From the NCBI RefSeq assembly GCF_000225345.1, contig NC_015977.1, positions 2,277,501 through 2,341,500 of the forward strand: a DNA stretch of 64,000 bases, written 5' to 3'. The notes under the pieces are model-generated. The model saw nothing but the letters and a program-made list of their open reading frames with translations, was not told the DNA's origin and made no database searches. A program made the translations under genes and the position numbers. Positions 11,412 to 27,770 of this stretch are shown piece by piece. Origin of the DNA: Roseburia hominis A2-183 (lineage in GTDB: Bacteria > Bacillota > Clostridia > Lachnospirales > Lachnospiraceae). The number at the start of each line of letters is the position of its first letter. Position 1 is the first letter of the stretch.

Positions 11412-11714
11412 GGATCAAAAGAATTGTCGCAATAAGCATAGACTGCTTTTGAGTGATAAGTAATATTATTAGAAACACACTTGGAGATTTCATGTGGAAA
11501 TGCAGGTGGAATATTCGTCTGGAAATGCTGTAAAATCAAGCATTTCCCGTCTTAAAAAATGTATTATATCATCTTTTTGCGCTGCTTTCTGCGCATCTGA
11601 AGTTCCGCAGGAACTTCCAATATGAATCCGATATGATTCATTATATCATCCACACATGAAATCAAATACATAGCACTGTAAAATCAAAGTAAATATTTCG
11701 ATCAACAGAACCTT
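11412..11714. other. Intergenic region, AT-rich, with one hairpin
   Basis: No gene is supported. It contains a perfect GAAGTTCC-GCA-GGAACTTC hairpin (11599-11617) without a T tract, and short repeats of ATTTC and CATGTGGAAAT. Base composition drops here relative to the metal genes, marking the edge of the lactose block. Confidence 0.5.
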
Positions 11715-12515
11715 TTATGACAACATCTCTTTCACACAGGTACTTCGATAATCACTTGGTGATATTTTATATCTTTCTTTAAATACTCGGTTAAACGTTC
11801 TCTGACTTTCAAATCCACTATCCAGACAAATATTTGTAATAGAATCACTCGTATTTTCCAAACGATGGCATGCATAGTTCAGCCTTGCATCGTTAAGATA
11901 TTGATTAAAGTTTCTATGAAATGTCTTGGAAAAGAGTCTGGATAAAACATATTTGCTCACGCCCAGGTCTTTTGCCATCTCTTCCAACGAAAACTTCTTC
12001 TTGAAATTTGCTGATATATAGGAAACTGTCTGGTAAATAAGATCGTTGCTCCCCACACTGCTCTTTTCTACCAAGTTTAATTTTCCTATGCAGCGTGCCA
12101 ACACAATTTGAAAATATGCCTGTGCAACAGTAATATCCGACTGTTCTGTCTCTAAAATTGCATTTATAACCCTATATACCTCCGGTTCAACCTTTTCCGC
12201 TTTGATGATTGGGTATTCAGGAGCCATGGATTGCATGATATCTGCAAATTTGGCTATCGTAAATGGCGATGCAATCAGATAAGTCGCTTTATTTACACCG
12301 GGTGTCAGTACCTGATAGTGATGAATAACATCTGGAAATACAAAGCCTATATCTCCTTTTTCCATATGGTATAGTTCCTGTCCGACACCAAGTTCTAATG
12401 ATCCACTTGTTACACAAACGATCTCCAGTGCATTATGAAGATGTGGTTCAATATGTTTTGACTTCCTATTTATTGCTATAATCTCCTCTTTTGTGTCAAC
12501 ATATTTTAACTGCAT
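11715..12515 (-). CDS. AraC family transcriptional regulator (cupin sensor)
   Basis: A 266-residue regulator. The N-terminal cupin domain (HIEPHLHNALEIVCVTSG, HMEKGDIGFVFPDVIHHY) probably binds a sugar. The C-terminal domain has the two AraC helix-turn-helix units (SLEEMAKDLGVSKYVLSRLFSKTF and ITNICLDSGFESQRTFNRVFKERY-ISPSDYR). The ATG at 12515 follows AAGGGGAG; the in-frame extension to 12632 overlaps the opposite-strand small ORF and lacks a ribosome site. It sits downstream of the permease gene, so it probably belongs to the lactose locus, but a second AraC regulator lies divergent from lacZ. Confidence 0.88.
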   Translation of the reverse strand: MQLKYVDTKEEIIAINRKSKHIEPHLHNALEIVCVTSGSLELGVGQELYHMEKGDIGFVFPDVIHHYQVLTPGVNKATYLIASPFTIAKFADIMQSMAPEYPIIKAEKVEPEVYRVINAILETEQSDITVAQAYFQIVLARCIGKLNLVEKSSVGSNDLIYQTVSYISANFKKKFSLEEMAKDLGVSKYVLSRLFSKTFHRNFNQYLNDARLNYACHRLENTSDSITNICLDSGFESQRTFNRVFKERYKISPSDYRSTCVKEMLS

Positions 12516-12624
12516 GAAATACTCCCCTTTGCAACATTTGTCTATATCTTCTTTCGATTTGGCAAGCAATCCTTTTACACCTATCTTATAATCAACTTGT
12601 AAATAAGGAAAGGAGGAATTGCAA

Positions 12625-12702
12625 ATGAGCAACCTAAAAAAATATCTGAATGACCTTTTAGTATTCTACACTGAATATTTTGAGCATCCTTACCATGTAT
12701 AA
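12625..12702 (+). CDS. Possible 25-residue small protein
   Basis: An ATG follows a near-ideal ribosome site (AAAGGAGGAATTGCAA) and opens 25 codons: it begins MSNLKKYLND, continues with LLVFYTEYF and ends EHPYHV before TAA. TATAAT lies at 12587-12592 and a plus-strand terminator at 12744, so a complete transcript of about 170 nt can be drawn. The peptide is amphipathic and unmatched in memory. It is divergent from the AraC gene. It could be a small membrane-active peptide, a leader, or the coding part of a dual-function RNA. Confidence 0.45.
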   Translation: MSNLKKYLNDLLVFYTEYFEHPYHV

Positions 12703-12713
12703 ATACTAAAAGG
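12654..12713 (+). repeat. 12 bp inverted repeat spanning the small ORF's 3' half
   Basis: CCTTTTAGTATT (12654-12665) and AATACTAAAAGG (12702-12713) pair perfectly around a 36 nt loop. The second arm begins in the stop codon, so translation and folding would compete. Confidence 0.65.
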
Positions 12714-12743
12714 ACTATTTTGTGAAAACTGAATATTTTCTTA

Positions 12744-12778
12744 AGGCCATTTCACAAAAATGAAGTGGTCCTTTTTTA
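12744..12778 (+). terminator. Plus-strand rho-independent terminator
   Basis: AGGCCATTTCA and TGAAGTGGTCCT pair (with G-U) around CAAAAA and are followed by TTTTTT. It would end the small transcript beginning near 12.6 kb. Confidence 0.65.
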
Positions 12779-12866
12779 TTTTCAAAATACAGTTCTATCA
12801 CTTTATATATAGAAAAAAGCACTGTCCCATCGAGCAACGACCAGACAACGCTTTCTCCTGTCAATT

Positions 12867-14264
12867 CTAATTTATGTCTAATGCATCTGTTACTTCATCT
12901 GCAGCAATTCCTTTTTCTGCTTTCAGTTTTTTATTTGCATCTTCTACATTCATTTTTGAAAGTACAAACATAATCAATACATCAAAGATTAACGGAAGCC
13001 AAAGATACATGAACTGCATCATATCAAGTGCAGACTGTGGCTGAGTTGCATTTGTTCCGACATATCCACTAAACTCAAGCATCCATCCAACAACAGCGGT
13101 TCCAATACCTCCACCAATTTTTACACCAAGAGAAGTACAAGAGTACATCGTTCCGTCAATTCTCTTTCCCTGCGTAAGATAAGTGTATTCAGAGCAAGAT
13201 GCGATAACTGCATTCATATCTCCCTGCCATGGTCCCTGACCTAAGGCTGCAAGAGCTGTAAATGCCATCATCAGCGGAACACTGCCCATATATCCGGCAA
13301 CAACAACAAGTGCTCTACCGATGACTGCTAAGACGTAGCCTCTTAAGTTCAGTTTATACATACCTTTCCACTTACCAACTAATGTCGGTGTGAAAATCAG
13401 GGCAATGATCAGTGGAATATTTACTGCCCATGCAAATTGTCCAAACAAATTCTTATTTTTCAGTACCCATGTCATGTAATAAATACCAGCTCCAATCATG
13501 GCACCATATAACTGCTGTAAAATATATGTTCCACAAATCATCATGTAATATTTGTTTTTGACAAGAAGCTTGAATGCCTGTACCATTCCATACTTTTCAT
13601 TATCATTCTTTACTTCTCCTTCATTAAGTTCTTCCTCCGGAAGTTCCTTAACAGAAAGTGCTGAAATCGTATTTACGACCAGACCAATGATTGCATAGAT
13701 AATAGCAACCGTTCTCCATGCCGCAGCATCTCCACCACATTTATCTACAAATCCAACTGTAATCGCCTGAATCAGAAGACTTGTTGAAAATGCAAAAATA
13801 AAACGGTAAGATCCCATCTGTACACGCTCTTTGCTGTTCTTTGTAATCAGTGACGTAAGTGCTGAATAAGCAATATTGTTTGCTGTATAAAACACACCAT
13901 TTAACAGTGTATAAGAAATAAAGAACCATGCATATTTAGCCGTTGTTCCCAAACTCACCGGTACTGCAAAGCAGCAGACCAGCGTAATGGCACAACCAAT
14001 ATATCCGTATAGCATCCAGGGTTTCGCTTTTCCCATTTTACTGTGTGTTTTGTCAATCATTGATCCAAAAAATATATCCGTAAAACCATCAAATAGTTTT
14101 TATACGGCAATCAGGGTACCCACGACACCTGCAGCAAGTCCTACCGAGTCCGTCAGATAGACCATCATAAAAGATGTCAGGAACGCATAGACTACATTAC
14201 CTGCAATATCACCTGATCCGTATCCAATTTTGTTATACCATTTCAAATACTTTTTTTCTTCCAT
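12867..14264 (-). pseudogene. GPH (MFS) family sugar:cation symporter, interrupted by a nonsense codon
   Basis: GPH permeases import lactose and related glycosides with H+ or Na+. The frame opens at 14264 (GAGGAG upstream) with MEEKKYLKWYNKIGYGSGDIAG and runs 54 codons to LIAV, then TAA (14100-14102). The same frame continues KLFDGFTDIFFGSMIDKTHSKMGK, the conserved GPH cytoplasmic loop, to a normal C-terminus at 12867. A Ser codon (TCA) changed to TAA would explain it. Without the stop the product would be about 465 residues with 12 membrane helices. It directly follows lacZ, so this is the expected lactose importer. An ATG at 14060 could restart translation, but the first helices would be lost. 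Confidence 0.85.
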
Positions 14265-14422
14265 AGAATTCTTTTGCTCCTCATATTCATTGCACTTAGA
14301 ATCTCAAGATGCCTAATTCTAAATTTTTCTTTTGTTTCGTTTTTGTCTGATTGCTCTGTATATCCGGACTTTACATTACAATCAGACTCTCTTTCCTTGT
14401 TTACGGGTTACATGAAACTTTA

Positions 14423-17400
14423 TTACCCCTTTACATACGGTATCAGTGTAAACTGAAACCGGAATAATACATCATCAAATCGGTACTGCTCCAATACAAC
14501 TGGACCACAACTATTAGAACCAATGCCATTTAATGCGTAGTCAACACAGAATACTACACTATCTGATTCTATTAATTCATAATTATGCGTTTTCTTCTCA
14601 AGTTCTTCCTGTGTATAATAAGAAGCATTGAATGAAAATGCCTTTTCTGCGGATGCCACAATTCCATATCGGCTGTTGTTAAGCTCTACATATTCACAAT
14701 CATAATGGCTTCCATTTTCCTGTGGACGGATATAGTCCTCATGTAAATCCCCTACATCTGCCCGGTACAAACCGTGGCTCGCAGCCTGATGTTTATCACA
14801 ATAACTTTCCTGTGGTCCCATTCCAAAGTATCTTACAGCTGAAAGTTTTTTATCCAGGAACATCCTCACACCAAATCTCGGAAGATCCGGGAATTCATCG
14901 TCTTTTGTTACTGCAATATCTACATCAATCTTTCCAGCAGCTTCTATTTTCCATGTAATCGTCACATCAAGAATCTTCTGTACTGTCTCTGCCACAACGG
15001 AAGCATGGCTTGTAATCTTCACACCATGTTTTCCCTGCACAACCTCTGTCGTATAGGCTCTTGTGTAAGCCTTATCATAGTGGGCTTTCTTCCATTCAGA
15101 CTTGATGTACATATCGTTATCTGTTGGAGCTCTCCAAATATTTAATTCCATCGGATGGTTCAAGTATTCCCGCCCTGCGAATTTCATCTCTGTAAAGAGT
15201 GCAGTACGTTTGTCTATGGTATAAGCAAATTCACGCCCCTTGATATGAATCTGTGTATCATTTTCATTTACCTGTAATTCAGAGTCCACTACTGTTTTTG
15301 GTTTCCATTTCTCTGCAAGTTTACATTTTGTATCCTCTTTACTTACCTCAATTTCATCAAATCCAAGAATATGGTCTTCATCCAACAGTGGCAATTCTTT
15401 TTTCAGATGATAAATAAGTTTTAAATAACATTTCCCATTCTCTGGAACATTGATCTTCAGGTTTGTTTTTCCTTCCCCGTGTGGTGCCACAGAAAACTCC
15501 GGAAGTATGCCTTTGCTGATCACAAGACCATCCTGTGTCAGTTCATAACTGATCTTCACATAATCTTTCAAGTCATCAAAATCCATGTAGTTATGAAGCA
15601 CCAGTTCTCCGCTTTCTTTGTTATAGGAAATAACTCTTGCCGGGCGATAAACATTCTTGTATTCCAAAAGTCCTGTATGTACCGTTCTGTCCGGATATAC
15701 TAATCCATCCATACAGAAGTTGCCATCATGAATTTCTTCGCCATGGTCGCCCCCATAAGCATAGATTGTCTTTCCATTCTCAGCAGTTCCATGGGCAATC
15801 GCATGGTCACACCATTCCCAGACAAAGCCGCCGCACATTTTATCATTATCCTGAATCATCTGGAAGTAATCTTCAAAATCTCCAGGTCCGTTTCCCATGC
15901 TGTGACAGTACTCTACCAAAAGGAAGGGTTTGCTTCCATCTTTATCCAGATATTCCTGAATTTCGGAAAGCGCTGGGTACATCCGGCTGTACACATCCAG
16001 ATTGCTGTAATCATATGTTTCATCATAATTACGGTATCTTGCACTCTCATATTGTGTGATGCGGTCTGGATCATAATTCTTTGTCCATTCCAGTGCTTTT
16101 TCAAAGTTGCAGCCATAAGCACTCTCATTTCCCATTGACCACATGACAATACAGAAACGGTTTTTGTCACGTTCCACCATGAGTTTTACGCGATCAACGA
16201 TTGCCTCTTCCCATACCGGATCATCTGCAATCTTCTCATTCCATCGCTTGAACCGATTGTAATCGGTGTCTTCTTTTCTGTAAATCATAAATGGACCATG
16301 AGCTTCAATATCTGCTTCATCTATCACCATGAATCCATACTTGTCACACATTTCATAGAAAAATGGTGCGTTCGGATAGTGGCTGGAACGGATCGCATTA
16401 AAATTATGCTGCTTCATTAACGTAAGATCGGTTGTAATCTGTTCCAGACTGATTGTAAATCCCGTAACCGGATCGGAATCATGTCGATTGACTCCACGGA
16501 ATTTAATCTTCTGTCCATTTAGATAAATGACCTGGTCTTTAATCTCTATCTTTCTTAATGCAATGTGATCCACAATTACTTCATTTTCTGTTTCAAGAAT
16601 CAGTTTATACAGATATGGATTTTCTGTATTCCAAAGTTCCGGACTTGCGATTTCTAATACAGCTGTTCCTTCTTCAGCAATACTTCCTAGTGCTACAACT
16701 GCTCCGTTTCTATCTTCAATCGAAATTTTTACATTTAACGGAGAGTAGAATTTCATTTCAATTTCTACTTTCGCAAGCATATCCTCAATTCTTGTTTTAA
16801 TATGATAATCACTGATTGCCTGTTTTGGGCGTTTCAAAATGTACACATCCCGGAAAATACCACTCATACGGAATTTGTCCTGATCTTCCAAATAGGAACC
16901 ATCACACCACTTCATTACCAACACTGCCACCGTATTCGTTCCATCCTGAAGTACATCGGTAACATCAAACTCACTGGTCATATGCGAAACCTGGCTGTAT
17001 CCTATGTAAGAGCCATTGATCCATACGTAAAAGCAACTGTCTACTCCTTCAAAGTTCAAAAAAGATTTTGGCGCTTTCTCATCTCTACTGTACTCAAAAG
17101 TATGTACATAGGCTCCACACGGAATGTCCTGTGGCACATATGGTGGATCAAACGGAAATGGATACCGGATGTTTGTATACTGGTGTGTATCATATCCAGC
17201 CATCTGCCATACACTTGGAACCTGAATCTCATCAAAATTTTCTGTATCATAATTCTTCTCAAAGAAAGAATCCTGAATGTCATAGATGCTGTTAAAATAC
17301 TGGAATTTCCAAGTTCCATTCAATAACTGCATACGATCTGACTCTTCTCTGTGTTCCACCAAGTTATCCATTCTTCTGGATGCCGGAATATAATAGGCTC

Positions 17401-17461
17401 TGGCTGGCATTGTGTTTTCGTGCAGTACGCTTAGATTTTCATAATAACGTGGTACGATCAT
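14423..17461 (-). CDS. lacZ: Beta-galactosidase, GH2 (LacZ type)
   Basis: A full-length 1012-residue LacZ-type enzyme that hydrolyses lactose inside the cell. In order: jelly-roll domain (residues about 40-210; SVWQMAGYDTHQYTN, PYVPQDIPCGAY), Ig-like domains, the TIM barrel (FRGVNRHDSDPVTG, RSSHYPNAP) with acid/base Glu in GNESAYG (about 442) and nucleophile Glu in LVEYCHSMGNG (about 514), and the C-terminal beta-galactosidase small-chain domain (GPQESYCDKHQA). No signal peptide. GGAGGAGAG precedes the ATG. The broken GPH permease gene follows 158 nt downstream; an AraC regulator is divergent. Confidence 0.96.
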   Translation of the reverse strand: MIVPRYYENLSVLHENTMPARAYYIPASRRMDNLVEHREESDRMQLLNGTWKFQYFNSIYDIQDSFFEKNYDTENFDEIQVPSVWQMAGYDTHQYTNIRYPFPFDPPYVPQDIPCGAYVHTFEYSRDEKAPKSFLNFEGVDSCFYVWINGSYIGYSQVSHMTSEFDVTDVLQDGTNTVAVLVMKWCDGSYLEDQDKFRMSGIFRDVYILKRPKQAISDYHIKTRIEDMLAKVEIEMKFYSPLNVKISIEDRNGAVVALGSIAEEGTAVLEIASPELWNTENPYLYKLILETENEVIVDHIALRKIEIKDQVIYLNGQKIKFRGVNRHDSDPVTGFTISLEQITTDLTLMKQHNFNAIRSSHYPNAPFFYEMCDKYGFMVIDEADIEAHGPFMIYRKEDTDYNRFKRWNEKIADDPVWEEAIVDRVKLMVERDKNRFCIVMWSMGNESAYGCNFEKALEWTKNYDPDRITQYESARYRNYDETYDYSNLDVYSRMYPALSEIQEYLDKDGSKPFLLVEYCHSMGNGPGDFEDYFQMIQDNDKMCGGFVWEWCDHAIAHGTAENGKTIYAYGGDHGEEIHDGNFCMDGLVYPDRTVHTGLLEYKNVYRPARVISYNKESGELVLHNYMDFDDLKDYVKISYELTQDGLVISKGILPEFSVAPHGEGKTNLKINVPENGKCYLKLIYHLKKELPLLDEDHILGFDEIEVSKEDTKCKLAEKWKPKTVVDSELQVNENDTQIHIKGREFAYTIDKRTALFTEMKFAGREYLNHPMELNIWRAPTDNDMYIKSEWKKAHYDKAYTRAYTTEVVQGKHGVKITSHASVVAETVQKILDVTITWKIEAAGKIDVDIAVTKDDEFPDLPRFGVRMFLDKKLSAVRYFGMGPQESYCDKHQAASHGLYRADVGDLHEDYIRPQENGSHYDCEYVELNNSRYGIVASAEKAFSFNASYYTQEELEKKTHNYELIESDSVVFCVDYALNGIGSNSCGPVVLEQYRFDDVLFRFQFTLIPYVKG

Positions 17462-17570
17462 AAATAGCTCTCCTCCAATACATATACTTTTTTGTTCTTT
17501 GTTTTCCTAAAGCAAACCTTATACTTTACTTTTTGTTTACGTTCCTTAGTTATGCTATATATAGCTTATC

Positions 17571-17614
17571 CTAATCCGCAAAATATGTCTATGAATTGGA
17601 TTAGACAAAATATG
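17571..17614. promoter_or_regulatory. Candidate AraC operator between lacZ and its regulator
   Basis: CAAAATATG occurs twice in the same orientation (17579-17587 and 17606-17614), 27 bp apart, and CTAATCC/GGATTAG (17571-17577, 17597-17603) flank the first copy. Direct half-sites in a divergent intergene suit an AraC-family activator. Confidence 0.45.
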
Positions 17615-17660
17615 CACTAAATGATACAATGATAAAAAGTACGAAAAGAGGTGCTGTCCT

Positions 17661-18524
17661 ATGTATTTGAACACCGGTTATTTGAACCACTCACATATGG
17701 ATTTCAAAGACAAAAGTCGTCCGCTGATTGTCGGTAGCTGTGGTACTTACCGTCTTTCCAGACATCCCAAACTTCCGACCTACCGTCCAAGGGGTCGTCT
17801 GGATTATCAGATTATATATATCACTGCTGGTTGTGGGCATTTTCATTTTGATAATGTAAATAATGAAACGATTGTTCCAGCCGGCAACATTGTACTGTAC
17901 AGACCGAAAGAACTCCAAAAATATGAATATTACGGAGAAGATAAGACAGAAGTATACTGGATTCACTTCACAGGAAGCAATGTGAAAAATATCTTACGTC
18001 AATATGGGTTTCCGGATAAAGAACGTGTCTTTCAAGTGGGTACATCTAATGAATATGAACAAATTTTCAAACGTATCATTATCGAGCTCCAACGCTGTCA
18101 AGACAATTATGAGGAAATGCTTGTCCTTTTGCTACGTCATCTTCTGATCAGTTTCCACCGGGAACTGACAAGAGAGCACATATTAAAAAATGAATATCTT
18201 GATTATGAGATGGATAATGCTGTTACCTTTTTCAGTGAAAACTACAATCAAAATATCAATATTGATGATTATGCTGCCTCACGAGGCATGAGTGTCAGCT
18301 GGTTTATCCGAAATTTCAAAAAATATACCGGTTCTACACCAATGCAATTCATTGTGGGAATCCGCATCAACAATGCTCAGATGTTACTTGAAACAACAAC
18401 TTATTCCATCAATGAGATTTCTAAGATTGTCGGATATGATAACCAGCTTTATTTCAGTCGGCTTTTTCACAAGTTGAAAGGATATTCGCCGAGAGAATAC
18501 CGAAAGCTGAGAAACAAATTCTGA
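17661..18524 (+). CDS. AraC family transcriptional regulator, divergent from lacZ
   Basis: A 287-residue regulator. The N-terminal cupin (RGRLDYQIIYITAGCGHFHFD, VPAGNIVLYRPKELQKYEYY, VYWIHFTGS) resembles the MsmR/arabinose-binding sensor group. The C-terminal domain has NINIDDYAASRGMSVSWFIRNFKKYTG and SINEISKIVGYDNQLYFSRLFHKLKGYSPREYR, the second AraC recognition unit being canonical. AGAGGTG precedes the ATG. Divergence from lacZ across a 199 bp region with direct repeats makes it the likely lactose-locus activator. Confidence 0.93.
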   Translation: MYLNTGYLNHSHMDFKDKSRPLIVGSCGTYRLSRHPKLPTYRPRGRLDYQIIYITAGCGHFHFDNVNNETIVPAGNIVLYRPKELQKYEYYGEDKTEVYWIHFTGSNVKNILRQYGFPDKERVFQVGTSNEYEQIFKRIIIELQRCQDNYEEMLVLLLRHLLISFHRELTREHILKNEYLDYEMDNAVTFFSENYNQNINIDDYAASRGMSVSWFIRNFKKYTGSTPMQFIVGIRINNAQMLLETTTYSINEISKIVGYDNQLYFSRLFHKLKGYSPREYRKLRNKF

Positions 18525-18596
18525 AATCCCACGATGTGGTCTTCTTTCTGATAATATTACTTATCAAAGCAAAGCACGATATGCTTATTGCGCCTG

Positions 18597-19103
18597 TTAC
18601 GGGAGCAGTCCCTGCTCCTGCATCTCACGCGCCACCTTCACATATTCCCGGCTGTTGCGGTAAATATCTTTTTTCTCCGCTTCCGTCAGCTGCCGCACGA
18701 CCCTCGCCGGGCTTCCGAGCACCAGCGATCCATCCGGCACCCGGGTGTGCTTTGTGACAAGGCTTCCCGCCCCGACGATACAGTCACAGCCAATCTCCGC
18801 TCCATCCAGGATCGTCGCCGCCATCCCGATCAGCGTCCGGTCGCCGACCGTGCATCCGTGGACAACCGCCTGATGCCCGATGGTCACATTGTCACCAATC
18901 ACCACATCGCCCTCGATGCTCGCATGAATCGTACAGCTTTCCTGAATGTTTGTCTCTCTTCCGATCGTGATGGTTCCCTCATCCCCACGCACGGTGGAGT
19001 AAAACAGCACACAGCTGTCCTCCCCGATCGTCACGTCTCCGACCACCATCGCCTCGCGTGCAATCCGCACACCTGGAAGGTCTGTAATCCGCTTATAGTT
19101 CAT
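18597..19103 (-). CDS. Gamma-class carbonic anhydrase-like protein
   Basis: A left-handed beta-helix protein of 168 residues with hexapeptide repeats (IGEDSCVLFYSTVRGDEG, IGDNVTIGHQAVVHGCTVG, IGMAATILDGAEIG). His residues in CTIHASIEG and GHQAVVHGC are the expected zinc ligands. The family (YrdA/PaaY-like) interconverts CO2 and bicarbonate or acts as an acyltransferase-like protein. The ATG at 19103 follows AAGGAGTG; the longer frame to 19250 overlaps the upstream gene. It starts 14 nt after the HEPN-containing ATPase gene, so it may be read through from that operon. Confidence 0.9.
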   Translation of the reverse strand: MNYKRITDLPGVRIAREAMVVGDVTIGEDSCVLFYSTVRGDEGTITIGRETNIQESCTIHASIEGDVVIGDNVTIGHQAVVHGCTVGDRTLIGMAATILDGAEIGCDCIVGAGSLVTKHTRVPDGSLVLGSPARVVRQLTEAEKKDIYRNSREYVKVAREMQEQGLLP

Positions 19104-19116
19104 TTTTCCACACTCC

Positions 19117-21021
19117 TTATACCAGCTCCGCATTGAACTTCTGTGCATTTTCATCCCAGCGGGTAAGACGGATCCTCTGATCTTTGCCAGCGAGCATGCG
19201 CGCCGGTGTCCCCCTGCCAAGAAGATATTTTTTCGACAGCGATGCTCCATGTGAAGTGCCCGCGATCACGCCGCGCAGCACACCGGTCGTCGTTGCCTCC
19301 GTCTGTGTCAGCGTTACTGTCTGACCGATCATGGACTCATGCCAGGCTCCCGTACCGCCCGCCGGCTGTGACGGCTTCTCAGCGGATGCCTCTGCCGCAG
19401 TGCCGAATGCCTCTGCCGTCCGCTGTCCTCCTGCACATTTGAAATTTTCCAGTATAAATTCACAAATCTTGCGCAAATCATGGCGTCCCGACTCGTTTAA
19501 TATCTCCAGATTCAGATGCGCGGATGTATTGCGGCAGTTGTTTAAGCTGTACATATCCTGCTTTAACTCATCAAGAGACGAATACAGGCTGAAATACTTT
19601 TTCATAATATCCCAGTGTTTGCGGATAATCTGAAAGTAATCATTAAACGCGAGCACATTCAGCTTGGAGATGATAATATTTCTCTGATCCGCCTCGTTCT
19701 CGGTCGCAATCCGGCGCAGATTTTCCAGATAATCATCCTTTCGCTGCACATCCTGACCGAGTACCGTCTCCCATTCTTCCGAGTATTCCTTACTGAGTGC
19801 CCGCATCAATACGTCGCGGATGCTCCGCTCCGTCTGCTCTAACATTGCTGCGAGCGAATCCAGTTCATCCAAAACAGCAAAATCCTTCACAAAATCAACA
19901 AAATACGGAGAGATCGGCTCATATACCAGTTCTCCCTTATCGCGGTAATCCGTGAGACCCGCCAGTTCAAACACATTTTTTTCAGACTTCTCCACACGGG
20001 TCACAAATCCATAGTCATACAGCTTTTCCACCCACTCGTTAAGCTTTTCGGAATATGCAGGGCCGATAAACTTTTCAATGAAGATGCCCATGCTGCTTCT
20101 GGTCTTGCTCTGATTCACATACTCTGTTCTCATGAGTGTACACATACGCTCATACGCCGTCTTGATGAAAGCTCCCCGCTCCCGGAAAATCCATCCGATG
20201 TCAACAGGACTCCCGTCCAGATTCTCGATTTCATCCCGCATCTGCATCAGCAGCCCCGGCGACCGTCCGCACAGACAAAGGATCTGCTGTCTTTCCTTCT
20301 CCTCCAGAAGACCGCACGGCATATCCCTGTAGAAGTTAAAATACTCTTCCAATTCCTCATTGGAAAAACCTTTCAGTGCCAGTGCCGGAAACGCATCCTG
20401 AAAATTCGACCCCTCCTGCATATGATGCGCGATCGTGCTCACGCTCCGCCTGGAGATCGTAATGATCGACAGATTCAGCCGGTTGGCGCCCTTTGGCGTC
20501 AGACCAAACAAGCGCTGGAAAAACTGCCCGTCCTTGAAGATTGCCTGTGCCCGGTCAAATTCATCGATTGTCAGAATCATCCGGATTCCAAGCTTTGTAT
20601 AATATTCAAACAACGAAGACAATTCTCTCGTAGCATTCATCTTAAAGACGACGTCATCCTGATGCCCGATATTTTCTTCAAAGAACTGATAGGATTTGAG
20701 GATTTTCTCCACCAGCCTGTCATTTGGCACAGGTGCATCGCGAAGCTCCTCTTCCCCGATGGTATCAGAAAATTTTAGAATCAGTACTGTCCAAAACTGC
20801 CAGAACGAGGTTCCTGCCTCCAGCACCGTATTAAAATAGTAGGTGTGCGGCTTTGCCGCCCTCTCCAGTTCGTCGCTCAGGTGCCGGATCAGTGTCGTCT
20901 TGCCGATGCCGTTTGGTCCAATCAGCGAATAACACTTGCCATAATCTCCTTCCTCCACGAAGAAGACCTTTTTCCTCAGTATCTGGCTGACCTCCTTTCG
21001 TTCAATATATAATTCACCCAT
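19117..21021 (-). CDS. AAA-type ATPase with C-terminal HEPN-like motif (partner of the 2040-residue protein)
   Basis: A 634-residue protein I cannot assign to a named family. The N-terminal P-loop ATPase has Walker A GPNGIGKTT (residues 35-43) and Walker B MILTIDEFD (about 148-156), then LSIITISRRS, reminiscent of STAND/ORC-like ATPases, and a winged-helix-like region. Around residue 497 a helical segment carries CRNTSAHL, matching the Rx4H motif of HEPN RNases. A Gly/Ala-rich linker leads to a C-terminal beta-rich domain (IGQTVTLTQTEA...IRLTRW). The start overlaps the stop of the upstream giant gene as TAATG, so the two are translationally coupled. An RNA-targeting effector switched by nucleotide is the inference; the HEPN call needs a profile search. 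Confidence 0.75.
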   Translation of the reverse strand: MGELYIERKEVSQILRKKVFFVEEGDYGKCYSLIGPNGIGKTTLIRHLSDELERAAKPHTYYFNTVLEAGTSFWQFWTVLILKFSDTIGEEELRDAPVPNDRLVEKILKSYQFFEENIGHQDDVVFKMNATRELSSLFEYYTKLGIRMILTIDEFDRAQAIFKDGQFFQRLFGLTPKGANRLNLSIITISRRSVSTIAHHMQEGSNFQDAFPALALKGFSNEELEEYFNFYRDMPCGLLEEKERQQILCLCGRSPGLLMQMRDEIENLDGSPVDIGWIFRERGAFIKTAYERMCTLMRTEYVNQSKTRSSMGIFIEKFIGPAYSEKLNEWVEKLYDYGFVTRVEKSEKNVFELAGLTDYRDKGELVYEPISPYFVDFVKDFAVLDELDSLAAMLEQTERSIRDVLMRALSKEYSEEWETVLGQDVQRKDDYLENLRRIATENEADQRNIIISKLNVLAFNDYFQIIRKHWDIMKKYFSLYSSLDELKQDMYSLNNCRNTSAHLNLEILNESGRHDLRKICEFILENFKCAGGQRTAEAFGTAAEASAEKPSQPAGGTGAWHESMIGQTVTLTQTEATTTGVLRGVIAGTSHGASLSKKYLLGRGTPARMLAGKDQRIRLTRWDENAQKFNAELV

Positions 21022-24000
21022 TATTCTCTTCCTCCGTTCTTCTGTAACATAAATTCCACAAACAATCCGGTATTGATCTTCACTCTTCCGCCGGATGTAA
21101 TGGAGATCACACGGCGTGCCTCAAGCAGATTCTTGGTCCGCTCGATCTCCTCCGTGCTATATCCCTGTTCTTCTGTGAGTTTCCGGTTGATCTCCTTCAT
21201 GTCGGACGTTCTCTGATCAAAGGATTTCACCGTGGCAAACGCCGCACTCTTCAGATACTGATACGTCTTGCGGCTTTCCGGATCTTCCACGCTGTCGCCG
21301 TCTTCCACCAGAAGGATATCAAAATCCGTCAGCAGCAGCTCTCTGATAAACTGCCGTACCATCTCTTCCACATCGCTGACGAGAATCCGTGATCTCGGAC
21401 AGCGGTCACTCACAAAGTAAGCAAACATCTGGCTGCACAGCCGCATCAGATACGTCGGATTACATCCCGACAGATCCAATAGCTTCTCCACCGCCCGTCT
21501 TCCAAGTTCCGTGTCGTATACGTCATACCCGAATGCCCGTTCCATCGGCTCCTTCACCAGCCGGACGGACGCCTCCTCATCCAGCGCCGCAATCTCCACA
21601 GACTTGGCAAATTCCGCCGTGTGGTTGAGTACGCCAAGGCTGTCAAATGCCCGCATCATCGCCTCATGTCCGATGATCACCTGAATAAAACCATACTGTG
21701 AAAATGTCTTGATAAAGTTCGGGATAGCCGCCAGGCTCTCATTTTTCTCTTTGTCTCTGCGTATCTCGCTCATGATGGTCGTACATAGAAGCGTAAATTC
21801 ATCCATAAACAGGAGAATCACATGTTCCCCGCCATCATACCGGAAAAACTCCCGGAAAAATCTCTCGAAGAGCGCCGCCCACGTCTCATTGCCTGCCGGA
21901 TCAAACAAATCCGGAATTTCAAGCTGATTCTGTCTTAAAAGCTCCACCACATCCGGATGATGATCGTAGATCTCATTTTCAAAGCGGGACAGAATATTGG
22001 CATAAAACGACCGCTTAAAGTAAGGAAGCAGTTCCACGCCGCCGGTTTCGTCCAGAATGTTATTAAAATTCAGCATGATCGCTTTTTGGCGCAGTTTCTC
22101 ATTGTCCTTGATATAATTTTTTATCTGATAGACCAGACTGGTCTTGCCGCTCTTTTTCTGTCCGTGGATAATGACTGCACTTCCCGGAATGAACTGTTCC
22201 TCTCCGTCTACGGTTCTAAGGATACTGCTTCTTATCTCGCGGCTCTCCTCCTCGCGCCCGAAGAACATCTTATTGTCTTCCAGCGGTTGTCCCTGCGACG
22301 GTTCCAGATACGGATTCTCTGCACCGGTATCCTTACCTTCCATCCTGCCGGTGCCGTACTGCAGTTCCAGATAATTGCCGGCATCCTCGCGAACCGTCTT
22401 TTTCTGCAGACTGCCGTTGCGGTCATTTTCCCCGGTCAGAAATGCGGTCGTGTATTCGTATTCCACGGACCAGCCGATATTTAAGCTTCCTGTATATCCT
22501 TCCTCCACGCTGATCGCAACCTCGACCGGGATCTGATCCCCGGCAGCCAGGTGCTTCTGTTCCAACACGATTTTAGAAGGAACGTCCACGCCCTCTGTGT
22601 AGGATTCCAAAATAATCCCGACGTTGTCCGCCGACTGGAGGTTCATATTTGCTGCTCCGTTCCCGACGATCAGCCAGAACGTCTTCTGTCCGTTCTCGAT
22701 CAGTTCCTGGTTCGGCTTGCACCAGATCTTCGGGCGGGTCTTCTCATCCTGATACATGGAGTTCAGCAGCTGTGCGATCTCTTTTTTCAATTTTGCAAAA
22801 ATGTTGGCGCCATCCGCTCCGTCCGTACACATCCACAGAATCTCTACCGCCTCTCTGCTCGGATGCTTCTTGATCTCTTCCTCCAGTTCGCGGATCTCCC
22901 GGTAGGCATCCCGCAGCAGGCGCTCCTGTAATGAAAATCCCGGCTGATTGGTGTAATCGCAGACGCTCATGCACGCCCTCTGCAGCTTTTCAAAGCGCGC
23001 TCTGTCATCCTTTCCCGCCAGCTTTAAAAAACGCACCTGCATGTTTAAAATCAGTTCTCTCACATCCGCAGAGATATTACTTCCAGAGAGGATTCCGGTC
23101 AGGTTTGCCGAAAAGCGGCTTCTGTCCTTCTTATAGCGCTCCCGCAAGGCCTGCAGCGCTTCCGCAAGGCTGGTCGTACGGATCATATCGTCAATCTGCA
23201 CCGCATATCGAAGCAGCTCATTGGTCAGCGTCGTATTCTTCTTTAAAATGGCGCAGACGGTCTCCATACTCTTCTGATCCAGCAGCATCATGTGGGAGAT
23301 AAGTTCACTCATCTGCCTGCAATTCTGGTTCAGCAGCGTCTCAAGTTGTCCGCGGTCTGCGGTCTTCCCTTGCTGTAAGTAGTTGGCAAGCTGCTCTCTC
23401 GTGCCGAAGTCCTGCAAAAACAGCTGATAGAGACAGTCGCCCATCGAGAATTGCGCTGCATTTTTCTTATTGCTCTTTCTGAGCGGATAACGCAGCAGAA
23501 CGGACAGGTAATACGTCTGCTCCCCGAATACCATATTGGCGTCCAGACCGATCTTGCGGCAGTTCTTCTGCAATGTGCCGATCAACAGTCTTCCGATCTG
23601 GTTCTCTCTGTCATATTTTCCACCCGCTTCCGCGCCATGCTCCAGCTCCACCTCCGGATAGGCAAGCGCGATTTTGGCAGCCGCAAAGGATTGCAGTTCC
23701 CCCGGCTGTCCGTGAAGAATATCCACTGCTCTCTGTGCATTCTCACTATTTTCCGGCATGCTCTGCTCGTTTAAGGTCACTCCCTTTAACAGCAGCTGGC
23801 TTAAATCCACCTGTTCCATACAGAACTTTGCCAGATTCTCGCCGATCGCATTTTCCAGCGTGACCGAAGCTTCATCCGCCTCGAATTCCTCCGTCTGAGC
23901 TTCCGGCTGTGCCTGTGCTCCTCCTGCCTCCACAAGTCGCGCCTCCAGTTCCAGTCCGTCCGCACCCGGTGCAAAAACAATCGCCGTTTCCTTATTCACA

Positions 24001-27000
24001 TATCCCGCCAGTATCTGTGAGGCACCGTAAACCGGATAATATTTCGTCGCGTTACGGTAACCCAGATAAATATCACGCCCCGCATCGTATTGGATGGTTG
24101 CCGTCTCTCTCTGACACCGGATCTCTATCACAGATTCTGCCAGAGACAGCACCGTCTGTCCCTCCTCCGCAAACACATGGTGCACACATTTTACAAATAC
24201 TCTCTGCCCGGTGAGCGTATGGCTCTTAAATGCCCGGTTGATCATACCGTCCGAGAGCACAGACATATAGTGTTTTGCCTTCTGGTCCACCACGATTGCC
24301 CGGTGCAGTTCATCGCACTGCGTGACCGTTCCCTCCTGCCAGCGGATCAATCCGCTGTAAGCTTCCGATATGCGGTGCACTTCCGTGATCCGGTTGTCCT
24401 CGCAGGCGAAAATAACATGCAGGCGTGTCACGTTCATCTGGCTCTTTAAAATATTGATGACGTTCGGGTCTGCCAGCGTCAGGGAAAAATTCATGACACG
24501 GTTGATCACCGCAATGCCTTCCTCCATATTAAAGTCTGTGACAACACCGAAACGGTAGATCTTCTGAATCTCATTTTTCAGGATCTGTTTTCCGTCCTTT
24601 ACACGGTAAAAATCATCCCCCACGCTGTCGATCACGTGGTAAGCCGCCGTGGAATCCGTCATCTCGAAGATCACACTCTCCCCGCTGCAAAGCTCCGGAA
24701 TATCAAAATCCACCTGTTCCGGTACGGCGGTGCCAAGCGTGGACATTACCTGCTCCACTTTCCGCACCTGCAATGCATCCGCCTCAATTTTAAGACAGAT
24801 ATACTGGTTCTTCGCAAAGGACGCCAACACCAGAACCGGATAATTATAATCAACGGACGGATGCTCCATGCCGGTTTTTTCATTTACCATTGTGCCGCCC
24901 GGCACATATTTTACCAGATAACAGTGCTTTGCTGTCTTTATCGTCTCTTCCGTTTCGATCTGTGCAAGCTCCGGATTGAAGATCGCAATCGCGCCGTCCG
25001 GTGCATACTCCTGATCTGTCACAAGCTTTTTATTGATATAGCAGTCGCTGATCAGCGCATAGTGTCCGTTGTAGAGAGAGATAATTCCGAGTTTCGGAGA
25101 AGCCCCCACATAGCGCGCCTCCTCCGTTTCCAGATATTCCACAAGCGGCAGTGTCTTTGAAACAATCTTTTTTGTCACTGCGGTCACCGCCACCGGAGCG
25201 GTTGACTTTTTCTCCGGATACGGATGTCCGGCACCGATCTTCACATCCTTCGCGCATGTCTTGCCATGCAGGGTATACGGGGTATATAAAACCTCGTAAT
25301 AATAACTTTTGGTATTCAGCTTCGGCATCGTCTCACAGTCAATGTCGGTCTGCTTGAAATAGACGGTTCCCTCCTTGTCCTCCAGATGGGCTTCCAGTTC
25401 TTCCTCCGGTACAATAAAACCGAACCCTGCACTGACCGGCTGCTTGATCATGTATTTTACGATATAACCGCGCAGTCTCTCCGGTTTGGATTCTTCCTGC
25501 TTCTCCTCTGCAATGACAGTCTTCTCTGAGATCAGAGCGACATCCTTCGCCGCGCAAAGCTTGCCCTTTAAAGTCTGCTCAAGCGTAAATGAAACCCTGC
25601 GCCCCAGAACCAGCTGCGATGCCTCACCGGCATCTGTGAGATTATTGACATGGAACCAGTATTCCCCGGAAATATAACCGGTACCGTTATCCGTGCGGTA
25701 AGCCGTAATGAGTCCCACATACCGCACCTGCGCGATATCTTCCGTCTGCAGAACCGTCTCTTCTGCGCCATCGTCTCCCGCAAGAAGCGTCAGTTTTTCA
25801 TCCGTGTATTCCTTCAGCTTTCCGGCAGTTCTCTCTCCATTCGAGAGCAGCACTTCCACGTCCTGTCCCACAAACTTCTTCGCATAAAAAACAGAGACCG
25901 GCAGCATCTTTACCTCGCCGTTCCTGTCAATCCACACTTTCGCATAATCCGCATAAGGATACATCTTCTCCAGCGTCACACTGACCGCCTCCTGCACCAC
26001 CTCACCCGGTTCTTTGGCGCAGGTGTAGGAAACCACGTAGATATTGCCCGGTTTGAATCCAAAGTCAATCTGCTCCTGTGAAAACATGACATTTCCGCGC
26101 GGCAATCCGGCGTTCTCCATCTTCGCATAATTCTGTGAGACATAGCAGTTCCCGATAAAGCCGTTCGTCCGGAGTGCATTCGGGAAAAATAAAATAATTC
26201 CCCTTCCTGTATACCCCGCTTCCGCCGGTTCTTCCTTTCCTGCCGCATTCACCAGCCGGACATCCTTGGCGATCCATTCGCAATCCGTAATTCCCGGCAC
26301 AAAGGAGACCTGATCTCCAACGTCGATCTGCGCTGCTCCGGAATGTTCCGGCACTCTGCACCAGAAACCATCTTCTGCATCCCGGCTTCCGACTGCGATC
26401 TTCCACGTATCCGTCTTCCCCCGGCTGCCCGGTTCCCGCACACGCACCACTTTCCCGCAGTAGCGGATTTCCTGCATATCGGCAAACGGAATCATGGACA
26501 CGCCCTCACCGATCAATACGAACATGGTGTCCGTCACAGCCGACACGACACCCTCCCGACAGCTCCCGTCCTTCATGGTGACATGCAGTGAATCGTTGGT
26601 CTCCGGAAGCGGGAAAATCTCCTTCACCCCGGCAAAATCGACCGGAACCTGTCCGCCGCCTGACTGCTCCAGCATCCCGGTTCCATCCTGCTGCAATCTG
26701 CCGACTAAAAATGTTCCATCAAAAAGGCTGTAAATTGCTGCCGTCCGGCTTAATTTTTCCGCGCAGATCTTGTGTATGTGCGATACCAGCCGGATGTCAT
26801 CCGCGCAGATCTTTCCGGATGCAAGCTTCAGATGGCAGGACACGGTACACGCAAAATCTCCATACCGCATGAGTTCCAGTTCCGCAGCATCACGGCAGGC
26901 TTCCGGCGCAAATGTAAAATTCCCGATCATTCCGGTATCACGCATCACATCATAATCTGTCAGTTCCCCTGCCAGCCGGATATCCGCCACATCCGAAAGC

Positions 27001-27143
27001 ATGATCTCCCTGCCCTCTACAGTGATCGTCTCCGCCGTGATGTTCTGCAGAATGCCTTCCGCCCTGCTGTCATCTTTCAGCGTCACTTCGACTCGGTTTA
27101 ATAAATAAATCCCGATCTCTCTGACCGTTATATCTTCACCCAT
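21021..27143 (-). CDS. Giant multidomain protein: tandem Sm-like/cold-shock-like modules plus C-terminal ATPase
   Basis: A 2040-residue protein not recognised as any described family. Residues 1-1010 alternate two small beta folds. The Sm-like units are VEVTLKDDSRAEGILQNI (about 11-60), LHVTMKDGSCREGVVSAV (183-230), VEVLLSNGERTAGKLKEY (424-476) and a diverged copy at 818-865. Cold-shock/OB-like units often end with a shared A(K/D)DV.L(V/I) signature (113-121, 292-299, 532-539, 631-637); two have GTGYISGEYWFHVNNL and GFGFIVPEE...VYFKQTD. Residues 1090-1560 are largely helical, and about 1560-1615 look like a beta sandwich. The end (from about 1620) is a P-loop ATPase: FGREEESREI, Walker A HGQKKSGKTS (about 1658), Walker B ILLFMDEF (about 1776), then a winged helix. 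AAGGAG precedes the ATG. RNA or nucleic-acid sensing is inferred. Confidence 0.7.
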   Translation of the reverse strand: MGEDITVREIGIYLLNRVEVTLKDDSRAEGILQNITAETITVEGREIMLSDVADIRLAGELTDYDVMRDTGMIGNFTFAPEACRDAAELELMRYGDFACTVSCHLKLASGKICADDIRLVSHIHKICAEKLSRTAAIYSLFDGTFLVGRLQQDGTGMLEQSGGGQVPVDFAGVKEIFPLPETNDSLHVTMKDGSCREGVVSAVTDTMFVLIGEGVSMIPFADMQEIRYCGKVVRVREPGSRGKTDTWKIAVGSRDAEDGFWCRVPEHSGAAQIDVGDQVSFVPGITDCEWIAKDVRLVNAAGKEEPAEAGYTGRGIILFFPNALRTNGFIGNCYVSQNYAKMENAGLPRGNVMFSQEQIDFGFKPGNIYVVSYTCAKEPGEVVQEAVSVTLEKMYPYADYAKVWIDRNGEVKMLPVSVFYAKKFVGQDVEVLLSNGERTAGKLKEYTDEKLTLLAGDDGAEETVLQTEDIAQVRYVGLITAYRTDNGTGYISGEYWFHVNNLTDAGEASQLVLGRRVSFTLEQTLKGKLCAAKDVALISEKTVIAEEKQEESKPERLRGYIVKYMIKQPVSAGFGFIVPEEELEAHLEDKEGTVYFKQTDIDCETMPKLNTKSYYYEVLYTPYTLHGKTCAKDVKIGAGHPYPEKKSTAPVAVTAVTKKIVSKTLPLVEYLETEEARYVGASPKLGIISLYNGHYALISDCYINKKLVTDQEYAPDGAIAIFNPELAQIETEETIKTAKHCYLVKYVPGGTMVNEKTGMEHPSVDYNYPVLVLASFAKNQYICLKIEADALQVRKVEQVMSTLGTAVPEQVDFDIPELCSGESVIFEMTDSTAAYHVIDSVGDDFYRVKDGKQILKNEIQKIYRFGVVTDFNMEEGIAVINRVMNFSLTLADPNVINILKSQMNVTRLHVIFACEDNRITEVHRISEAYSGLIRWQEGTVTQCDELHRAIVVDQKAKHYMSVLSDGMINRAFKSHTLTGQRVFVKCVHHVFAEEGQTVLSLAESVIEIRCQRETATIQYDAGRDIYLGYRNATKYYPVYGASQILAGYVNKETAIVFAPGADGLELEARLVEAGGAQAQPEAQTEEFEADEASVTLENAIGENLAKFCMEQVDLSQLLLKGVTLNEQSMPENSENAQRAVDILHGQPGELQSFAAAKIALAYPEVELEHGAEAGGKYDRENQIGRLLIGTLQKNCRKIGLDANMVFGEQTYYLSVLLRYPLRKSNKKNAAQFSMGDCLYQLFLQDFGTREQLANYLQQGKTADRGQLETLLNQNCRQMSELISHMMLLDQKSMETVCAILKKNTTLTNELLRYAVQIDDMIRTTSLAEALQALRERYKKDRSRFSANLTGILSGSNISADVRELILNMQVRFLKLAGKDDRARFEKLQRACMSVCDYTNQPGFSLQERLLRDAYREIRELEEEIKKHPSREAVEILWMCTDGADGANIFAKLKKEIAQLLNSMYQDEKTRPKIWCKPNQELIENGQKTFWLIVGNGAANMNLQSADNVGIILESYTEGVDVPSKIVLEQKHLAAGDQIPVEVAISVEEGYTGSLNIGWSVEYEYTTAFLTGENDRNGSLQKKTVREDAGNYLELQYGTGRMEGKDTGAENPYLEPSQGQPLEDNKMFFGREEESREIRSSILRTVDGEEQFIPGSAVIIHGQKKSGKTSLVYQIKNYIKDNEKLRQKAIMLNFNNILDETGGVELLPYFKRSFYANILSRFENEIYDHHPDVVELLRQNQLEIPDLFDPAGNETWAALFERFFREFFRYDGGEHVILLFMDEFTLLCTTIMSEIRRDKEKNESLAAIPNFIKTFSQYGFIQVIIGHEAMMRAFDSLGVLNHTAEFAKSVEIAALDEEASVRLVKEPMERAFGYDVYDTELGRRAVEKLLDLSGCNPTYLMRLCSQMFAYFVSDRCPRSRILVSDVEEMVRQFIRELLLTDFDILLVEDGDSVEDPESRKTYQYLKSAAFATVKSFDQRTSDMKEINRKLTEEQGYSTEEIERTKNLLEARRVISITSGGRVKINTGLFVEFMLQKNGGRE

Positions 27144-27374
27144 ACAAGCTACTCCTTCTACAACCCATCATGTATTTATGGTATTACAGCACCCGCGCTT
27201 TTGCAAGGAATTCTTTCCACGCAAACCGCCCGGAGATTCACGGTGCTCGTCAAATCTGCATACAGTCATACACTATAAATAATGTCTTTCTGCATTTCAT
27301 AATCTCCCGGCGGATTCATGCAACTTTCTGTACCATGGTTGTATTTATTCCGGCTGCTCTGTATTCTGAAACTT

Positions 27375-27492
27375 CGGGTCTACAGCCGATAAAATACGCC
27401 GTGAGACCCGTTTTCTGGAATATTTTGATCATTTTTTCTATCTGCTGGAGCGTTCTCGGGTCTACAGCCGATAAAATACGCCGTGAGACCCG
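27375..27492. repeat. Two identical 36 bp copies of a CGGGTCT...AGACCCG hairpin
   Basis: The segment at 27375-27410 recurs exactly at 27457-27492. Each is a hairpin with stem CGGGTCT/AGACCCG and a 22 nt loop containing ACAGCCGAT and ACGCCGTG. They lie upstream of the giant ATPase gene and belong to the same family as the array at 5977-6228. Confidence 0.85.
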
Positions 27493-27527
27493 GAATTTTA
27501 CAATTTCCGGGTCTCACGGCGTATTTT
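27473..27527. terminator. 23 bp perfect hairpin with flanking A/T tracts
   Basis: Positions 27473-27495 and 27505-27527 are perfect inverted copies around a 9 nt loop. The right arm ends GCGTATTTTTTG, so it resembles a plus-strand terminator, but no plus-strand gene precedes it. The left arm is the second half of the repeat at 27457, so two folds are mutually exclusive. Confidence 0.6.
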
Positions 27528-27590
27528 TTGCTTCCAGTGCCCAAAAGCCATGGATTTATCCCTCTTTTTCTCTCTTATCAAGCGGTTTTG

Positions 27591-27625
27591 GGGTCTCACG
27601 CAGCTATTTTTCCTCTGTAGACCCG
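27591..27625. repeat. Further GGGTCT...AGACCC hairpin
   Basis: GGGTCT (27591-27596) and AGACCC (27619-27624) enclose a 22 nt pyrimidine-rich loop, the same geometry as the copies at 27375 and 27457. Together with these elements the 27144-27770 intergene shows no gene. Confidence 0.7.
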
Positions 27626-27770
27626 CGCCAGCCTTCTCCAGGCTTTCTCACAAACGTTTTCTGCAATAAAAAATATGCCACGACACATTTTCGCACCAAG
27701 TGCGGTCGCCTGCGGCATGTCTCTCCTTCGCGCAAGTGTGCATCCTGCCCGGAGGGCTAAAAGCACCTTG

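Follow-up and report, generated by a model that had tools for sequence, protein, structure and literature searches.

What does a bacterium make of a 2040-residue protein that joins a long array of small β-modules to an ATPase, and that is encoded head to tail with a second ATPase bearing a HEPN ribonuclease motif? The question is raised by a 64,000-nucleotide (nt) stretch of Roseburia hominis A2-183 (GCF_000225345.1, NC_015977.1, positions 2,277,501-2,341,500; genome of 3.59 Mb in a single contig), which is the whole of the DNA that we analyzed; we call it the window, and coordinates below are window positions. We suggest that the two genes encode a two-component, ATP-switched ribonuclease, with an RNA-sensing gene 1 product and a HEPN ribonuclease from gene 2, a reading that we hold to be evenly poised between right and wrong; the role of the pair is probably immune. 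The genes and their junction are as follows (lengths in amino acids, aa).

21021..27143, minus strand: gene 1, open reading frame with ATG start; Sm/cold-shock array and C-terminal ATPase, 2040 aa.
19117..21021, minus strand: gene 2, open reading frame with ATG start; ATPase-HEPN-S1 protein, 634 aa.
21019..21023, minus strand: TAATG stop/start overlap of the two genes, one base being common to both reading frames.

An earlier note on this DNA had proposed these overlapping frames, and both lie where it had put them, with the lengths and the TAATG junction that it gave. It had also claimed a β-module array in gene 1, P-loop ATPases in both proteins and an RNxxAH motif in gene 2, all of which are borne out by the evidence that follows.

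The N-terminus of gene 1 is β-rich, and has four related tandems of an Sm module and a cold-shock domain (CSD) as well as further small barrels. Support for the tandems comes from Pfam, from AlphaFold2 and from a profile of one segment of the protein (independent E-values, i-E, which refer to a search of 24 sequences).

26769..27116, minus strand: Sm-CSD tandem 1, residues 10-125; internal profile over 13-95 (i-E 3.3e-9), AlphaFold2 β-modules, SM-ATX over 17-37.
26244..26597, minus strand: Sm-CSD tandem 2, residues 183-300; internal profile over 183-236 only (i-E 1.5e-4).
25524..25898, minus strand: Sm-CSD tandem 3, residues 416-540; source segment of the internal profile.
24354..24686, minus strand: Sm-CSD tandem 4, residues 820-930; internal profile over 849-886 only (i-E 5.2e-5), AlphaFold2 strands.

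For tandems 2 and 4 the support covers part of the length. DUF150_C, the Sm-like C-terminal SH3 domain of RimP, matches residues 422-474 above its Pfam cut-off (E 2.1e-7), and SM-ATX falls just under its own (E 2.6e-6); among the 24 aligned gene 1 proteins, matches at E<=0.01 were to LSM in 8, DUF150_C in 3, SM-ATX in 3 and CSD in 2. The profile of residues 416-540 found two to three matches at i-E<=0.01 beyond the best one in every aligned protein (24/24), and tandem 3 has a GxG and an H that are invariant in 24/24. Profiles of other segments repeat less, with at least two matches in 22, 18, 14, 8 and 4 of the 24. Shuffled and reversed controls cover four of the six segment profiles; with 240 shuffled and 24 reversed sequences as targets, three of these gave 0 matches at i-E<=0.01, and the fourth gave 1, in a shuffled sequence. 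The small β-modules of gene 1 are more than chance.

Structure prediction, which the earlier note had offered as a check, does predict Sm and oligonucleotide-binding (OB) folds. The AlphaFold2 model of gene 1 residues 1-1130 (mean predicted local distance difference test, pLDDT, 82; predicted template-modelling score, pTM, 0.35) is dominated by strands, and structural fits place CspA over 472-538, and Hfq/Sm proteins as well. Unr, a fly multi-cold-shock-domain RNA-binding protein (PDB 6y6e, 7zhh), has comparable tandem cold-shock modules, with structural matches over gene 1 residues 472-640 and 473-540. Against the whole array Unr reached a Foldseek E of 1.5e-4, but with a query-side template-modelling score of 0.07 and a root-mean-square deviation of 17, so the agreement is one of single modules only. 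To our knowledge Unr has neither an ATPase nor an alternation with Sm modules.

Each protein also contains an ATPase, that of gene 1 being followed by a further C-terminal region.

21414..22316, minus strand: gene 1 ATPase, nSTAND1-related, residues 1610-1910; AAA_16 4.3e-5, below cut-off; GQKKSGKTS at 1661-1669, MDEFT at 1780-1784.
21039..21326, minus strand: gene 1 C-terminal region, residues 1940-2035; weak matches in relatives to MCM_C (0.0044, in L025) and Cdc6_C (0.025, in L056).
20242..21018, minus strand: gene 2 ATPase, residues 2-260; NACHT 5.3e-8, above cut-off; Walker A GPNGIGKTT, IDEFD at 152-156, SRR at 190-192.

Both ATPases have intact motifs. In gene 1 the acidic box and the G, G and K of Walker A are invariant in 24/24 aligned proteins, and G35, G40, K41 and D153 of gene 2 in 31/31 (alignment A1) and in 10/11 of a wider set (A5), the exception being the relative at locus L026. 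The assignment to the STAND class rests on the NACHT match of gene 2 and on nSTAND1 matches of gene 1 relatives: two of these (L024 and L025) score above the nSTAND1 cut-off, and window gene 1 has no listed nSTAND1 match at E<=1. AAA_16 was matched at E<=0.01 in 22/24 gene 1 proteins, and on gene 2 both ATPase_2 and AAA_16 fall just under their cut-offs. The two ATPases are distantly alike (hhalign probability 49, E 1.8e-4). From the weak matches of its relatives, the region at residues 1940-2035 of gene 1 is perhaps a winged helix.

The remainder of gene 2 holds the candidate effector.

19432..19866, minus strand: HEPN domain (by motif criteria), residues 386-530; AlphaFold2 helical bundle; HEPN_Swt1 3.2e-4 for the slice, below cut-off; PADLOC PDC-M34B 4e-5.
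19516..19533, minus strand: HEPN active-site motif RNTSAH, residues 497-502; R and H in 31/31 (A1) and 11/11 (A5).
19120..19353, minus strand: S1-type OB fold, residues 557-634, from a fold search with the gene 2 model.

The HEPN signature is given, in the cited parts of PMC3710099, as Rx4-6H at the end of helix 3 and the start of the following loop, typically with N, D or H after the R, and with Ex3[KR] in many families. In gene 2, E398, R402, R497 and H502 are kept in 31/31 (A1) and 11/11 (A5) aligned proteins, the most distant of which are ~20-30% identical; N498, directly after R497, is kept in 29/31 (A1) and is K in 2. The AlphaFold2 model (pLDDT mostly >90, and 78 around the motif loop) has a helix at 483-500, a loop at 501-503 containing H502, and then helices at 504-507 and 510-529, an order read from the model alone. 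By published motif criteria, residues 386-530 are a predicted HEPN domain. HEPN_Swt1 reaches E<=0.01 in 9/31 aligned gene 2 proteins. A scan with PF18731 found 1/60 genomes above cut-off, with a 283-aa protein, and was uninformative.

The pairing is conserved. Gene 1 lies immediately upstream of a HEPN-bearing gene 2 at 4/4 informative loci, spaced from a 1-nt overlap in the window through gaps of 2 nt (L023; 2021 aa and 648 aa) and 5 nt (L024; 1750 aa and 536 aa) to 12 nt (L025; 1341 aa and 508 aa). By BLASTP, window gene 1 matches that of L024 at 6e-22 (25%) and that of L025 at 2e-24 (22%), and gene 2 matches that of L025 at 1e-20 (22%). At L026 a partner cannot be seen because the HEPN-bearing gene 2 sits at a contig end. 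Protein-database searches, in which 7988 (gene 1) and 7997 (gene 2) candidates were scored, add that 20 of 46 gene 1 matches have a longest-contig size identical to that of one of 72 gene 2 matches, an indirect but strong sign that the two genes are on one contig; matches P0030 (gene 1) and P0064 (gene 2) share the contig size of L023 (37257). The remaining gene 1 matches, without an equal-size partner, say nothing, as only those candidates were scored. A genome of the same family (G357) carries a gene 1 relative.

True gene 2 relatives were found in 1/60 genomes of the genus, 4/397 of the family, 2/391 of the class and 1/299 of the phylum, samples that overlap and in each of which the window genome is counted. 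Profile scans of the family, class and phylum scored the first 3 or 4 candidates per genome, so remote copies may be missed. Short matches around the P-loop were set aside throughout: those in 8 of the 9 positive genomes among the 60 of the genus (E 3.9e-4 to 9.5e-4), at least 6 loci in genome contigs (L010-L015; 21 to 95 residues), and 3 loci in viral contigs (gene 2; 37-44 residues), the two contig scans having used two peptide patterns each. Because it is so rare (4/397 family genomes, own included), the gene pair is accessory. That the pair is rare and yet keeps its catalytic residues speaks for accessory genes under selection, and is by itself no proof of immunity.

What the analysis shows is the structure of the genes, the fold families predicted for their products, NTPase and HEPN motifs that are intact, a pairing kept in relatives, and rarity; RNA as the ligand, docking of the ATPases, the order of activation, RNA cleavage and an immune role are inferred. 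The Sm and cold-shock array would make gene 1 the sensor by binding RNA, and the nSTAND1-like ATPase would be the switch. The RNA bound would probably be single-stranded or abnormal, with phage transcripts and intermediates of translation or decay as examples. Gene 2 would be the effector: its ATPase would dock with that of gene 1 and oligomerise, so that HEPN domains would pair into active dimers and cleave RNA that the S1 domain holds or presents. The outcome would be translational shutdown or cell death. The earlier note's interpretation, an RNA-sensing switch that would activate an RNA-targeting effector, is supported in part: the anatomy behind it is right, with folds of the Sm and cold-shock kinds, an ATPase in each protein, a HEPN domain on motif grounds and a conserved pairing. 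Two points in favor of our reading had been overlooked there: the S1 domain, which gives both proteins RNA-binding folds, and the exchange of N-termini among gene 1 relatives.

A number of observations weigh against this ribonuclease. Window gene 2 scores 18.3 bits (21.4 for the slice) against a HEPN_Swt1 cut-off of 27.5, and is therefore not filed under that family. The fold search with the gene 2 model listed no solved HEPN, an absence that means nothing because rows mainly on model residues 202-285 (the S1 part) filled the lists; the HEPN slice profile had 8 matches in the PDB, none of them a HEPN and the best a designed protein (4.5e-4, over its first helix). None of the outcomes that the earlier note had named as refuting it was seen: Sm/OB folds are predicted, relatives keep the pairing, and the HEPN motif is invariant, although a fold match to a solved HEPN was not obtained. 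The gene 2 relative at L026 (genome G776; 1 of 11 in A5) is without Walker A, which we did not use because its 5' end, lying at the contig end and resembling joined foreign sequence by eye, was judged unreliable. The two-pattern scans of viral contigs found no true relative, and gene 1 had no match there at all; nothing in plasmid records matched either window gene or either L025 gene, and nothing in phage records matched the two window genes or L025 gene 2. Among the ten scanned neighbors of the pair in the window, which are metabolic or regulatory, there are no recognised defence genes, nor are there any among the ten scanned at L023-L025 (metabolic, transport and regulatory; one at L023 is a WYL-domain regulator). 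The defence context that the earlier note had proposed to look for was not seen among the ten genes scanned around the pair in the window, and the pairing is kept in the differing neighborhoods of relatives. Defence-like neighbors occur only at L026, near a DEAD/ResIII helicase with a PLD domain, and at the plasmid locus L058. To these points are added two ATPase pairs without a recognisable HEPN, described below.

A stress or RNA quality-control machine, detecting stalled ribosomes or aberrant transcripts and trimming or degrading them, would explain the same proteins without immunity, and we think this somewhat unlikely. The recognisable RNA-binding folds are of the translation and transcription type (Sm, CSD, S1 and RimP-like SH3), the scanned window neighbors have the metabolic or regulatory character just described, and one relative contains NusA. 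A search with L025 gene 1 returned 10 proteins, L025 gene 1 itself first, of which 6 were scanned for domains; in one (P0126, 1293 aa) NusA_N, S1 and KH precede an nSTAND1 ATPase of gene 1 type, and residues 1-346, the NusA core, share ~50% identity with annotated NusA. Such a fusion could come from faulty assembly, or else be a guarded NusA decoy; its plasmid matches comprise 61 records, the best 10 of which match the NusA part only. Another (P0124) has CSD and TPRs as its N-terminal parts. A quality-control role is at odds with the patchy distribution (1/60 in the genus and 4/397 in the family, own genome included) and with swapped N-termini that include a DNA methylase adjoining a restriction subunit.

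That methylase leads to a second alternative, membership in the broader two-gene STAND conflict systems, built around the ATPase pair with an exchangeable sensor and effector. HEPN would be only one of several effectors, the cue may be DNA or protein, and the Sm/CSD array would act on nucleic acid generally; we regard this alternative as quite improbable. The methylase lies on an Acinetobacter ursingii plasmid (L058, NZ_MH220285.1, 4364-9890), reached through a weak plasmid match (24.9%, E 4e-10), where a type I restriction R subunit is followed by an annotated N6-DNA methylase gene and an overlapping gene 2-type ATPase gene. The C-terminus of the methylase gene corresponds to the gene 1 ATPase plus tail (hhalign probability 97.9, E 3.7e-13) and the second gene to the gene 2 ATPase (probability 95.6, E 1.2e-8), and an Rx4-6H string is wholly absent from this gene 2-type protein. 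Of 311 class genomes scanned with a gene 1 profile, 2 were positive, the window genome and G500; in the latter, the gene next after a gene 1 C-terminus encodes a 439-aa ATPase with no HEPN among its Pfam matches, the tail of which has a single RELRAMH string, its R without a following N, D or H. HEPN is therefore maybe not the sole output. On two Rhodococcus plasmids, a relative of the methylase-linked ATPase has no annotated partner of gene 2 type in the 6 kb around it (the gene table being incomplete), which counts against universal pairing. Because relatives keep the ATPases, swap the N-terminus and can lack HEPN, the ATPase pair appears, by comparison of sequences, to be the older core on which sensor and effector parts change. 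A published nSTAND2 operon with GT4 or HEPN effectors (PMC8195603, in the section cited) also fits this alternative. The conservation of E398, R402, R497 and H502 in 31/31 aligned gene 2 proteins argues in the other direction, as does the lack of an nSTAND2-named match for either window protein at E<=1, the presence of such a family in the library being unchecked. It is very unlikely that the pair uses ATP to chaperone or remodel RNA, with a HEPN that is inactive and serves to bind RNA: some HEPN families are inactive (PMC3710099, in its cited parts) and predicted RNA-binding folds abound in both proteins, but the same four residues are kept in 31/31 (A1) and 11/11 (A5), with K for N498 in 2.

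The nearest described system is the nSTAND2 two-gene operon. According to the relevant section of PMC8195603 (eLife 2021), its two neighboring genes likewise both encode a STAND-type NTPase and one of them bears a HEPN ribonuclease effector, and it is described as mobile with a predicted counter-invader role. Its effector-bearing STAND has eroded NTP-binding motifs, in contrast to the intact gene 2 (31/31), and that section mentions no Sm/CSD array. Because the effector-bearing STAND is inactive there and both ATPases are intact here, the pair is not a member of the nSTAND2 operons. Gene 2 itself resembles the Swt1-like HEPN fusions of Table 1 in PMC3710099, which combine an Abi2/Swt1-kind HEPN with a STAND ATPase and S1; the table row also lists TPR and names no Sm/CSD partner gene, which sets it apart by description, and "cold shock" has 0 occurrences in that paper's text. 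CoCoNuT type IV restriction systems likewise join cold-shock/OB modules with HEPN ribonucleases and predicted RNA targeting, but on a base of McrB-like GTPases and coiled coils (PMC11090510, in the part cited); gene 2 comes near the McrB class in a single match, to AAA_5, which stays below its cut-off (E 0.0067) and is confined to residues 33-55 around Walker A, and no match is McrB-named. DUF499 ATPase-HEPN proteins (Ava_2192; Hma/BREX-related) have a Swt1/Abi2-clade HEPN fused to an ATPase, but with the HEPN N-terminal and with methylase and helicase genes (cited parts of PMC12839542 and PMC3710099), neither of which is among the ten scanned window neighbors.

The earlier note had called the pair a candidate undescribed system, which needs a qualification. 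STAND operons of two genes in which HEPN is the effector are already published, as are Swt1-like HEPN/STAND-ATPase/TPR/S1 fusions; our searches of an open-access library of papers, in which subscription papers are not covered, gave no description of an Sm/cold-shock array paired with an ATPase-HEPN protein. The new part, as far as a literature search can tell, is the Sm/cold-shock sensor. A bolder form of our reading, possible though on the doubtful side, is a bacterial innate RNA receptor, in which the alternating Sm/cold-shock array would read foreign or aberrant RNA and license the HEPN-S1 ribonuclease through paired STAND-like ATPases, these forming a general chassis for RNA-array, NusA-decoy and DNA-methylase front ends, with a function analogous to that of animal RNA receptors. 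If our main reading is right, a multi-module RNA-reading protein licenses a bacterial ribonuclease without a guide RNA, and the ATPase pair is a reusable switch carrying attached sensors and effectors; the locus would then be a tractable case for nucleic-acid recognition by prokaryotic STAND proteins. R497, H502 and the Walker residues make the mechanism directly testable.

The ten scanned neighbors (11.7-36.1 kb) are of a sugar-metabolism kind and encode AraC regulators, MFS and MATE transporters, glycosidases, a hexapeptide transferase and a xylose-isomerase-like protein; ARAGORN found no tRNA in the window. The hexapeptide transferase gene (18600-19103) begins 13 nt past the end of gene 2, so close that cotranscription may occur. 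We left it out of the system because what comes after the pair differs elsewhere: the next gene encodes a WYL protein in L023 and a response regulator in L025, and the next open reading frame in L024 is on the opposite strand. Among 31 genomes, relatives of the flanking genes (40-54% identity) were found in 12 for the transferase and 7 for the MATE transporter, own genome included; in the 3 other genomes with both, the two are 81-94 kb from each other or on separate contigs, and an insertion site could therefore not be shown.

Upstream of gene 1, the intergenic region at 27370-27640 contains a 37-nt repeat twice (27374-27410 and 27456-27492), an inverted third copy (77%) at 27591-27625 and a 26-bp hairpin at 27473-27527, and folds with z -8.6. 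The 35-nt core of the repeat occurs, at <=3 mismatches in the whole genome, only at these two places. Rfam matches here were to microRNA families under their cut-offs, and were attributed to the hairpin alone. On the other side of the pair, ~7 kb at 11428-18592 (AraC, MFS transporter, β-galactosidase, AraC) has 37.9% G+C versus 51.5% over 18593-27143, and is bordered by 48-nt inverted repeats (83%) at 11428-11475 and 18545-18592; it may be a mobile or acquired sugar island.

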